A program made the translations under genes and the position numbers. Positions 13,676-49,246 of a stretch of DNA of 64,000 nucleotides are shown here, one piece after another (the first letter of the stretch is position 1; each line of letters starts with the position of its first letter). Under the pieces are notes generated by a model. It did no database searches. It was not told the DNA's origin and worked only from the letters and a program-made list of their open reading frames with translations. The stretch lies in assembly GCF_014270105.1 (NCBI RefSeq), contig NZ_JACNMF010000004.1, forward strand, positions 308,944 to 372,943, in the 5' to 3' direction. Origin of the DNA: Hyunsoonleella aquatilis. GTDB taxonomy: Bacteria > Bacteroidota > Bacteroidia > Flavobacteriales > Flavobacteriaceae.

Positions 13676-13704
13676 GCACTTCGACTGCGCTCAGTGTGAC
13701 ATGC
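13676..13704. repeat. Dispersed TTCGAC/CTGAGCG repeat upstream of carA
   Basis: gcacttcgactgcgctcagtgtgacatgc is an intergenic copy of the family seen inside argS at 1897-1947. It shares the gcacttcgac end and the ctgagcgc core in reverse orientation. It lies in the carA leader. Confidence 0.6.
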
Positions 13705-45535: not shown

Positions 45536-48500
45536 ATGATTCACTTCTTTGGAAACGTAAACAACACCATTTTTGCGGTTCAAACTTCAAAAGAATTATC
45601 CACTGAAACGATTTCGAAATTAACATGGCTTTTTGGCAACCAGCCTAAAATTGAGCAAGCATCTTTGGATGCTTTTTTTGTTGGCCCCCGTGCTGCCATG
45701 ATAACACCATGGAGTACCAATGCTGTGGAAATTACCCAAAACATGGGAATTGATGGTATTTTGAGAATTGAAGAGTTTAAAGCGGTTTCTAAGGATTTTA
45801 ATGATTTTGATCCGATGATTTCGGAGAAGTTTGATGGTTTGAATCAAGAATCATTTACCATTGAAATTGAACCAGAGCCTATTCTAAACATTGAGGATAT
45901 TGCGGCTTACAATGTGCAGGAAGGGTTATCGTTAAGCGATAAAGAGGTGGCTTATTTAGAAGGGGTTTCTGAAAAAATTGGACGTCCACTGACAGATTCG
46001 GAAGTTTTCGGGTTTTCTCAGGTGAACAGTGAGCATTGTCGTCATAAAATTTTCAATGGAACATTTGTGATTGATGGCGAGGAGAAACCGACCTCTTTAT
46101 TCAAATTGATTAAGGAAACATCTAAACAAAACCCGAATGATATTGTTTCGGCATACAAAGATAATGTGGCGTTTATTAAAGGCCCGATTGTTGAGCAATT
46201 TGCTCCGAAACGCGCCGACATTCCGGATTATTATTCCACCGAAGATTTCGATTCCGTAATTTCCCTAAAAGCGGAAACACACAATTTTCCGACTACAGTG
46301 GAGCCTTTCAATGGTGCTGCAACGGGATCAGGTGGAGAAATAAGGGATAGACTAGCTGGTGGCAAAGGATCTATTCCTTTGGCAGGAACCGCCGTTTATA
46401 TGACATCCTATTCCCGATTGGAAAAAAATCGCCCATGGGAAAACGGCGTGGCAGAGCGTGATTGGCTGTACCAGACGCCAATGGATATTTTGATAAAAGC
46501 CTCAAACGGGGCATCTGATTTCGGCAACAAATTTGGGCAACCGCTTATTTGTGGATCTGTCTTAACCTTTGAACATGAGGAAGATGCTCGTAAAATTGGG
46601 TTCGATAAAGTGATTATGCAAGCAGGCGGTATTGGCTACGGAAAAGCGTCTCAAGCCATAAAAGATACGCCAAAAACTGGTGATAAAATTGTAATTCTTG
46701 GAGGGGAAAACTACCGCATCGGTATGGGGGGTGCTGCGGTATCTTCTGCCGATACTGGGGAATTTGCTTCTGGTATTGAGCTGAATGCAGTACAGCGTTC
46801 CAATCCTGAAATGCAAAAACGTGCCGCCAATGCGGTTCGTGGTATGGTGGAAAGTGAAGAAAACCATATCGTTTCCATTCACGACCATGGCGCAGGCGGC
46901 CATTTGAATTGTTTATCCGAATTAGTGGAAGACACTGGTGGAAAAATAGATTTGGATGCCCTTCCTGTTGGTGATCCAACGCTTTCCGATAAAGAGATTA
47001 TCGGTAATGAATCCCAAGAGCGTATGGGGTTAGTGATTGGTGAAAAGCATTTCGACCTATTGCACAAAATTGCCGACCGTGAGCGCTCACCAATATACAC
47101 CGTTGGTGATGTGACGGGAGACGATAGATTTACCTTCCAGTCCAAAACAAAAGGGAATACCCCCATGGATTTGGCCATGGAAGATATGTTTGGGAGTTCA
47201 CCCAAAACCGTGATGGTTGACAATTCTGTGGTAAGGAACTATGCAGATGTAGATTATAACCCAAGTGAATTTTACGATTACCTTGACCAAGTTTTACAAT
47301 TGGAAGCTGTTGCCTGTAAAGATTGGCTTGTGAATAAAGTGGACCGTTGCGTCGGTGGAAAAGTGGCCAAACAACAATGCGCAGGACCTTTGCAATTGCC
47401 ATTGAACAACGTTGGCGTGATGGCATTGGATTACAAAGGAAAGGAAGGGATTGCAACCTCAATAGGCCACTCCCCTATTTCTGGATTGATAGACCCAGTA
47501 GCAGGAAGTAGAAATTCTATTACCGAGGCATTAACCAATATCATCTGGGCACCTTTAAAAGATGGATTAAAATCGGTTTCTTTATCAGCAAACTGGATGT
47601 GGCCTTGTAAAAATGAAGGAGAAGACGCGAGATTATATGAGGCTGTTGAAGCGGTTTCTGAATTTTCAATTGATTTGGGTATCAATGTGCCAACAGGAAA
47701 GGATTCACTTTCGATGAAGCAGAAATACCCCAATGAAGATGTGATTTCTCCAGGAACGGTAATTATTTCGGCGGCAGCCAATTGTAATGATATTACCAAA
47801 GTGGTGGAACCTGTTTTGAAGAAAAACGGAGGCAATATTTATTATATCAACCTTTCTCAGGATAGTTTCAAATTAGGTGGGAGCTCGTTTGCCCAGATTC
47901 TGAACAAAATAGGAAATAAAGCCCCGAACGTTAAGGACGCTGGTTATGTAAAAATGGTTTTCAATACGATTCAAGATTTAATAAGAAACGAGCAAATCTT
48001 AGCAGGTCATGATGTAGCCTCTGGTGGATTGATCACCACACTTTTGGAAATGTGTTTAGCCGATAACAATCTTGGCGCTACTTTAGACTTATCTGCTTTA
48101 AATGAAAAAGATTCTTTTAAAGTTCTATTTGGGGAGAATGCAGGTATAGTGATTCAGGCAAAGGACGATTCTGTTGAAAGTGTTTTATCTGGTGCAAATG
48201 TTGATTTCGTCAACATTGGAAAAGTAACTGAAAGCGACACACTCAGCATTATTAATGATGCTGACGTATTTACGATGACCGTTTCAAGACTGCGAGATGT
48301 TTGGTATAAAACATCGTATTTGTTGGACCAAAAACAAACTGCTAATGGATTGGCGCAAGATAGATTTGACAATTATAAAAATCAACCGCTTCAATATAAA
48401 TTTCCAAAACAGTTTACCGGGAAACTTGCCGATGTCATTCAGAGCGTAAGCGAAGAATCTGAGATTACCACGTCGCAAACTCCTCGTAATGACAATGAGA

Positions 48501-49246
48501 GACCTAAAGCTGCAATACTTCGAGAAAAAGGTTCCAACTCTGAACGTGAAATGGCAAATGCCATGTATTTGGCAGGTTTTGATGTGAAGGACGTGCACAT
48601 GACCGACTTAATTTCTGGTCGTGAAACCTTAGAAAACATACAGTTTTTAGGTGCCGTGGGTGGGTTTAGCAATTCCGACGTTCTGGGTTCTGCCAAAGGC
48701 TGGGCTGGTGCTATTAAGTATAATGAAAAGGCGAAAAAGGCAATCCGAAACTTTTTTGATAGAGAAGACACTCTATCCGTGGGAATTTGTAATGGCTGTC
48801 AATTATGGATGGAGCTGGACCTCATCAATCCTGACCATGAAATTCATGGCAAAATGCATCACAACGACTCCCATAAGCATGAAAGCTCCTTTACTTCTGT
48901 AAAAATTCAACAGAACAACTCTGTGATGCTTTCAACATTGGCGGGAAGTACTTTAGGTGTTTGGATATCCCACGGTGAGGGGAAATTCCATTTGCCGTAT
49001 TCCGAAGACAAGTATCATATTGCTGCCAAATATGGTCATGAAGGCTATCCTCATAACCCGAATGGATCAGATTTTAATACCGCTATGCTATGCGATAAAA
49101 CTGGTCGTCATTTGGTAACCATGCCACATATTGAGCGTTCCACTTTCCAATGGAACTGGGCCAACTACCCTGAAGGGCGAAAAGACGAGGTTTCACCATG
49201 GCTGGAGGCTTTTGTAAATGCTCGAAAGTGGATTGAAAAACTTTAG
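45536..49246 (+). CDS. purL: Phosphoribosylformylglycinamidine synthase (fused synthetase-glutaminase)
   Basis: 1236 residues, the long single-chain form. Converts FGAR, glutamine and ATP to FGAM in purine synthesis. Synthetase part: FGFSQVNSEHCRHKIFNG, KAETHNFPTTVEPFNGAATG, GQPLICGSV and HDHGAGGHLNCLSELVED. The glutaminase domain starts at RPKAAILREKGSNSEREMAN and has nucleophile Cys in VGICNGCQLWMEL and the GEGKFHLPY region. Residues about 967-986, in the linker just before the glutaminase domain, are encoded by a 60-bp dispersed-repeat element (48434-48493) that keeps the frame. Single-gene unit. Confidence 0.97.
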   Translation: MIHFFGNVNNTIFAVQTSKELSTETISKLTWLFGNQPKIEQASLDAFFVGPRAAMITPWSTNAVEITQNMGIDGILRIEEFKAVSKDFNDFDPMISEKFDGLNQESFTIEIEPEPILNIEDIAAYNVQEGLSLSDKEVAYLEGVSEKIGRPLTDSEVFGFSQVNSEHCRHKIFNGTFVIDGEEKPTSLFKLIKETSKQNPNDIVSAYKDNVAFIKGPIVEQFAPKRADIPDYYSTEDFDSVISLKAETHNFPTTVEPFNGAATGSGGEIRDRLAGGKGSIPLAGTAVYMTSYSRLEKNRPWENGVAERDWLYQTPMDILIKASNGASDFGNKFGQPLICGSVLTFEHEEDARKIGFDKVIMQAGGIGYGKASQAIKDTPKTGDKIVILGGENYRIGMGGAAVSSADTGEFASGIELNAVQRSNPEMQKRAANAVRGMVESEENHIVSIHDHGAGGHLNCLSELVEDTGGKIDLDALPVGDPTLSDKEIIGNESQERMGLVIGEKHFDLLHKIADRERSPIYTVGDVTGDDRFTFQSKTKGNTPMDLAMEDMFGSSPKTVMVDNSVVRNYADVDYNPSEFYDYLDQVLQLEAVACKDWLVNKVDRCVGGKVAKQQCAGPLQLPLNNVGVMALDYKGKEGIATSIGHSPISGLIDPVAGSRNSITEALTNIIWAPLKDGLKSVSLSANWMWPCKNEGEDARLYEAVEAVSEFSIDLGINVPTGKDSLSMKQKYPNEDVISPGTVIISAAANCNDITKVVEPVLKKNGGNIYYINLSQDSFKLGGSSFAQILNKIGNKAPNVKDAGYVKMVFNTIQDLIRNEQILAGHDVASGGLITTLLEMCLADNNLGATLDLSALNEKDSFKVLFGENAGIVIQAKDDSVESVLSGANVDFVNIGKVTESDTLSIINDADVFTMTVSRLRDVWYKTSYLLDQKQTANGLAQDRFDNYKNQPLQYKFPKQFTGKLADVIQSVSEESEITTSQTPRNDNERPKAAILREKGSNSEREMANAMYLAGFDVKDVHMTDLISGRETLENIQFLGAVGGFSNSDVLGSAKGWAGAIKYNEKAKKAIRNFFDREDTLSVGICNGCQLWMELDLINPDHEIHGKMHHNDSHKHESSFTSVKIQQNNSVMLSTLAGSTLGVWISHGEGKFHLPYSEDKYHIAAKYGHEGYPHNPNGSDFNTAMLCDKTGRHLVTMPHIERSTFQWNWANYPEGRKDEVSPWLEAFVNARKWIEKL
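48434..48493. repeat. 60-bp dispersed repeat element inside purL
   Basis: Begins gtcattcagagcg and ends ctcgtaatgac, so its ends are inverted copies (gtcatt / aatgac). The opposite strand begins gtcattacgaggagtttgcg, closely like the GTCATTxCGAGG repeats seen in many bacterial genomes. Sixty bp equals twenty codons. Confidence 0.65.

Follow-up and report, generated by a model that had tools for sequence, protein, structure and literature searches.

The flexible hinge of PurL in Hyunsoonleella aquatilis probably carries an inserted dimer of YGTC-tagged palindromes of the REP type, and the inserts of the different carrier lineages would be independent acquisitions, each drawn from the repeats active in the respective genome. 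The insert lies in the window, a stretch of 64,000 nucleotides to which the coordinates below refer unless a locus or contig is named. Its host gene is purL (45536..49246, plus strand), encoding a phosphoribosylformylglycinamidine synthase of 1236 aa. The assignment is based on the open reading frame, the Pfam domains (FGAR-AT_N, FGAR-AT_linker, AIRS_C, FGAR-AT_PurM_N-like and GATase_5) and the PDB match, the best being 9n9w_A.

The 60-bp element in purL and its repeat family

A preliminary description of this DNA had placed a 60-bp repeat, beginning with gtcatt and ending with aatgac, just before the glutaminase domain. Both ends were confirmed from the sequence. The element (48434..48493, plus strand) comprises exactly 20 codons of the open purL frame, as had been described, and encodes VIQSVSEESEITTSQTPRND, residues 967-986 of PurL. 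The glutaminase domain GATase_5 (residues 989-1233; 48500..49234, plus strand, converted from the Pfam match) begins two residues past the insert, in agreement with the order proposed. Sequence and repeat matches identified the 60 bp as a head-to-head dimer. Two inverted half-elements of 27 bp (48434..48460, plus strand) and 32 bp (48462..48493, minus strand) are one base apart, with outer TGTC tags at 48433..48436 (plus strand) and 48491..48494 (minus strand). Neither half has an identical second copy in its own genome. The left half is the only 27-bp left half there, and the nearest other copies of the right half are 91% identical over 32-33 bp (repeat matches).

The element is a member of a repeat family. 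Comparison of the 60 bp with its own genome showed that the repeat is not unique: with E values up to 10 allowed, 10 further partial matches appeared, and seven of these reached E 0.0013 or better (best 1.4e-6). A search with the half-element pattern GTCATTNNGAN{6,34}AATCT returned 69 matches in the genome, compared with 5 for a reversed-pattern control. These 69 half-elements are spread over 47 sites, with at least two exact halves at 18 of them. There are 16 head-to-head dimers, including the purL copy, and 24 of their 96 frame-orientation combinations are open. An Rfam search of positions 48000-49000 gave no match up to E 1.

The half-elements were then compared base by base. The seventh base is complementary to its partner before AATCT in 66 of 69 halves, against a maximum of 37 in 10000 permutations, and the covarying pairs are GC (25), AT (18), CG (18) and TA (5). 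The base before GTC, GTC itself belonging to the search pattern, is C in 37, T in 28 and another base in 3 of 68 half-elements. From this complementarity and the C or T before GTC, each half-element is a hairpin with a YGTC tag. Half-elements are 26-48 nt long and have an outer stem of 5 bp, followed by a variable inner part. The A and T at the first two stem positions are complementary in 69/69, as fixed by the search pattern, the fourth pair in 66/69 and the fifth in 56/69. In the captured elements the stem is followed by CT and variable bases; CT is part of the pattern, and elements with other bases may be missed. Folded as RNA, the whole dimer (48432-48495) forms one long hairpin (-15.3 kcal/mol, z -2.24, 3 of 200 shuffles as good), and the single purL half-elements fold no better than shuffles. 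By eye, the tag base seems to go with the variable base that follows, CGTC having mostly X = G/A and TGTC mostly X = C/T.

Some further arrangements of repeats were seen. Seven half-elements lie within 800 bp at locus L041 1970-2763 (G000 C15:363969-364762), one of them overlapping the upstream end of a small frame that is GIY-YIG-like by eye. Genome G255 has six copies of one half-element (C1:841098-842563), mostly in 242-bp steps, which suggests a tandem array containing the repeat. In the window, positions 1917-1933 and 13678-13694 match a CTGAGCGAAGTCGAAGG-type repeat with up to 3 mismatches and are perhaps part of the other repeat class to which the preliminary description alludes.

PurL linkers in relatives

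The preliminary description had called for a comparison of PurL linkers across the family. Linkers were read in 207 of 210 loci (L258, L263 and L268 were unreadable). The loci came from 80 named relatives (the best 80 of 591) and from 130 family genomes (30 plus 100 best-scoring, from 150 listed; 380 of 397 genomes searched gave matches). This sample of best-scoring loci, in two overlapping sets, leans to near relatives. It contained 192 distinct linkers, 40 with a repeat of class A, B or C and 152 without. Assigned by motif, class A, the window's element, is present in 21 linkers, class B (TGTCAGGTCGAGC...) in 12 and class C (GTCACTTCGAGTG...) in 7; for the tree counts, L099 was assigned to class A manually, and the assignments of L124, L125 and L220 are uncertain. 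Linkers of classes D (L133/L136/L141), E (L071/L074/L077/L170/L172) and F (L129/L137) are repeat-like by eye only and were counted among the 152. Class A and C elements have a constant outer frame with different nested inner hairpins in some copies, e.g. TCCCGATAGCTATCGGGA. The PurL linker of L179 (G088) is 43 residues long and holds, by eye, one repeat nested in another of class B.

The comparison bore out the earlier proposal that an intergenic-type repeat sits in frame at the synthetase-glutaminase junction. Counted after FP..FTG, the linker has 26 residues in the window's PurL versus 8-12 in 139 of the 152 linkers without a class A-C repeat. In this latter group, P is the third linker residue in 107/152, and 23/152 combine D or E at position 4 with a residue other than P at position 3. 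By eye, unfilled KLPxIDxSKP-type linkers appear in all parts of the tree, distant rows included, and the closest relatives are mostly without the insert (carriers assigned by eye). The suggestion that an insertion is tolerable at this place was also supported, since relatives hold three repeat classes in this one linker. Such tolerance finds weak support in the structure model of a PurL fragment. The 20 insert residues are exactly one of its segments below pLDDT 50, in a mediocre model with several other low segments (mean pLDDT 66.5, pTM 0.57, 134 of 514 residues below 50).

Carriers are scattered among the relatives. On a 107-row PurL tree built without the linker, the 13 class A carriers required 13 changes against a mean of 12.4 for shuffled labels. 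Thus class A is as scattered as chance allows. For any insert, 30 carriers required 25 changes (shuffle mean 26.3). Class A as one clade was rejected on these 107 rows with p-AU 7e-53, the group having been named after the tree was seen. A 192-row tree from a shorter stretch gave changes per carriers of 21/21 for class A, 12/12 for class B and 6/7 for class C, in a parsimony count that is blind to gain versus loss, and no class A carriers are neighbours on it. The PurL hinge seems to have gained such repeats on many separate occasions in related bacteria. Gains are favoured over losses, because KLPxIDxSKP-type linkers turn up throughout the tree (by eye) and would have to be re-created each time an insert was lost.

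The inserts were also compared for their exact position. A strict-motif start lies exactly 12 nt after the FTG codons in 16 class A rows with filled linkers (14 distinct; one, L114, was scored as C in the tree count), in five class C rows and in one class F row. Class B inserts start 16 or 22 nt after these codons. Diverged class A copies also start at 12 nt, except L099 and L124 (by eye), and a class A motif start at 9 nt in L239 is a chance match in an unfilled linker. The strict-motif inserts of classes A, C and F nearly all follow KLxD. Most carriers have D at linker position 4 (25 of the 28 with class A or C, 11 of the 12 with class B); the copies elsewhere in the own genome have no context of this kind. 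Full class A dimers in PurL have one common orientation, and many class A inserts have similar spacer lengths (both by eye). The flanks of class A carrier pairs exceeded the expected identity by 0.014 (46 pairs, p 0.002, the pairs not being independent). The fixed start and the D context may be due to a preferred target, to selection at the protein level or to alleles being exchanged. Together with the single orientation, the fixed start could point to shared descent or transfer; tolerance alone would not predict it.

Origin of the inserts

Repeat load was compared in 80 genomes, the first 74 family genomes and six added ones, five of which were added as class B/C carriers. The purL copy was subtracted beforehand, and carriers were assigned by eye. 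Class A copies elsewhere had a median of 49.5 in the 12 purL carriers versus 20 in the 68 others (one-sided p 0.002), class C copies 5.5 in 6 carriers versus 1 in 74 others (p 0.007, one-sided), and class B copies 1 in 8 carriers versus 0 in 72 others (p 0.013, one-sided); these p values are optimistic because the genomes are related. Another exact copy of the own class was absent in 1/6 class C and 3/8 class B carriers.

Subtypes of the halves were traced as well. The 27-bp left half was found at 30 places in 17 of 397 genomes among the matches listed. The window's left half, of the GTAAGCG subtype, recurs in the congener G321 and in G345, with identical copies in both (pattern search). The purL left half of G255, of the GCTAGCG subtype, has an identical sequence at two other G255 places among the matches listed. 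The right-half subtype CGAGGAGYTTGCGAYGNGG occurs once, only in purL, in the carriers G000, G125, G145, G163 and G255. It is present in 12 other genomes, away from purL in 11, and the purL place in G394 is not among the matches listed. The single 27-bp left half of the window's genome and the confinement of this right-half subtype to purL in five carriers speak against a local origin, for which the higher copy load of carriers and the left-half matches speak. A 27-bp left half peculiar to purL had been considered as proof of common descent; this was dropped, since 27-bp halves lie elsewhere in several genomes.

The genomes were further searched for a mover. The three Y1_Tnp loci of the own genome had no class A element closer than 1.5 kb. 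PF01797 matched in 35 of 80 genomes, comprising 6/12 class A carriers and 29/68 others, and gave no match in the genomes holding 89, 79 and 74 element copies. Element copies and PF01797 counts were weakly correlated (Spearman 0.28, p 0.011). Mobilisation by RAYT as a demonstrated mechanism was rejected on account of the Y1_Tnp loci without elements and the high-copy genomes without PF01797, a weak positive correlation remaining. No dedicated transposase was evident, PF01797 being the family looked for. One Y1_Tnp match lies in a 517-aa frame (L011 1417-2967; G000 C12 near 670113) that combines an IS200-like Y1_Tnp part (29-142) with coproporphyrinogen III oxidase (219-513). Y1_Tnp matches in 490-553 aa frames of eleven other genomes suggest that a wider haem-enzyme fusion may exist, the composition having been read in L011.

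We propose that the element is a non-autonomous hairpin and that its insertions elsewhere in coding sequence would mostly be removed by selection. The PurL hinge between the synthetase and glutaminase parts would tolerate up to about 35 extra residues. With selection elsewhere and a tolerant hinge, the survivors would be the inserts that are in frame and free of stops.

A further step, which we put forward tentatively, is that the PurL hinge is a true integration hotspot, at which an activity on single-stranded DNA would repeatedly insert several families of YGTC hairpins at one precise position, family-wide; for most class A and C inserts this position would be the one 12 nt past the FTG codons. 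The identical start position can also be read as exchange of alleles. A KLxD-plus-insert allele of rare origin would then have passed from genus to genus through homologous recombination of short tracts of the conserved purL gene. The D at position 4 in class A/C carriers, set against the P at position 3 of most other linkers, the similar class A spacer lengths and the small excess of flank similarity agree with such a spread. We nevertheless consider it rather unlikely, as the same linker holds different repeat classes, the class of the insert follows the repeat load of the host genome, and, in both cases examined, the left-half subtype has matching copies within the genome or genus of its host. 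In addition, the right flank of L063 (Tamlana nanhaiensis) resembles its sister L145 (by eye), and the excess flank identity of carrier pairs is 1.4% only.

The shared position and frame of most class A and C carriers would likewise fit a single insertion that dates back to the ancestor of the family, was passed on by vertical descent and was then lost or decayed on many occasions. Some of the 23 linkers with an acidic fourth residue (D or E) and a third residue other than P could be its decayed remnants, and the authors of the R. japonica study lean to a common origin for RPE-4/6/7 in the available parts of their paper (PMC3767692). This history is improbable, for unfilled KLPxIDxSKP-type linkers across the tree could hardly be restored by repeated deletion, every class A carrier stands alone, and three classes occupy one linker. 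Retention of the insert for a function in PurL or its mRNA, such as hinge mechanics, folding or translation, could likewise account for the D before it and for the constant start, yet we hold it to be very doubtful. The closest relatives mostly do without the insert, unrelated sequences stand in its place, it is of low confidence in the structure model, and the single halves do not fold better than shuffles. That a native variable linker resembles the repeat by chance, as the variation among relatives and the chance match in L239 might suggest, was ruled out with near certainty by the matches in the own genome (69 versus 5 in the control) and by two complete half-elements with matching, complementary hairpins.

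Related repeat systems and inserts in other genes

The closest known kind of repeat is the CGTC-tagged REPs, which include Rickettsia RPE-4/RPE-6 in the available text of Di Nocera, De Gregorio and Rocco 2013 (PMC3733652). Shared with that account are the CGTC/TGTC tag, the occurrence of dimers with outward tags, and a mostly intergenic location with some intragenic dimers of 20-30 aa. A-T pairs opening the stem, set here by the search pattern, and the failure to find a dedicated transposase, PF01797 being the family looked for here, may be further common traits. The families CGTC-1 to CGTC-4 are described there as predominantly head-to-head dimers with the tags outside, carrying CGTC, TGTC or CCTC at one end, and the purL-type half-elements have such a tag. 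Their stems of 8-9 bp, loops of 4-5 bases and unpaired CCA tail differ from the half-elements found here, which are 26-48 nt long and have a 5-bp outer stem, a variable inner part and CT after the stem. Judged by these descriptions, the element departs from the known families in its stem, loop and tail and is therefore a new variant. The same text gives one example, recB of two Xanthomonas species, in which distinct REPs lie at nearly the same site. The GTAG REPs with RAYT (TnpA_REP) transposases are also alike in being short palindromes with dimers and intragenic copies, so far as that text describes them; here, however, the tag is YGTC, and no class A element was found near the Y1_Tnp loci.

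Like the Rickettsia palindromes RPE-4, RPE-6 and RPE-7 of PMC3767692, in its available parts, the present elements are in-frame and protein-coding and carry an ATGAC motif (here AATGAC; PurL, GltX and IcmF), and different groups occupy one place in orthologues. The Rickettsia palindromes are reported there to occupy solvent-exposed protein regions. The hosts in that account are obligate intracellular alphaproteobacteria, and all aligned Rickettsia orthologues carry an insertion, whereas here most relatives are unfilled. Further literature on the known kinds, available in part, is found in PMC10969869, PMC12306157 and PMC6006769. The titles and abstract openings of open-licence PMC literature gave no report of such inserts in PurL or in Flavobacteriaceae genes.

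PurL is not the only enzyme with such an insert. GltX of the own genome has 22 element-type residues at 370-391, about 19 more than the congener L272, where the catalytic Pfam match (3-345) gives way to the anticodon-binding one (390-518). Inserts were present in 3 of 29 readable GltX loci, the congeners L271 and L273 having different inserts of the same style at this site (39 genomes matched and 30 loci were read, L292 being a wrong ORF and left out of the count). The GltX of congener G400 (C1:113882-115597) showed a two-piece match in one open frame of 670 aa, with 162 nt between the pieces. G409 is similar, and both perhaps have larger in-frame insertions at another place in GltX. In IcmF of the own genome, 27 element-type residues lie at 500-526, 16 more than in most congeners, at a domain junction in a stretch that does not align with the solved IcmF structure. 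Among the 26 IcmF loci read, that of G403 (L305) has a different short variant. Further copies in long open frames lie in an A2M-family gene (L051), in a membrane-protein-like ORF without a Pfam match (L012) and in L017, also without a Pfam match.

For RPE-4/6/7, all aligned Rickettsia orthologues carry some insertion, and the available parts of PMC3767692 leave the choice between hotspot and one old insertion unsettled. In the present family most relatives are unfilled and carriers are scattered, and the same question is therefore testable with available genomes. If the hotspot is true, Rickettsia-type protein-coding palindromes would be a general and ongoing process in free-living bacteria. 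In Flavobacteriaceae, mobile repeats supply linker sequence to the core enzymes PurL, GltX and IcmF.
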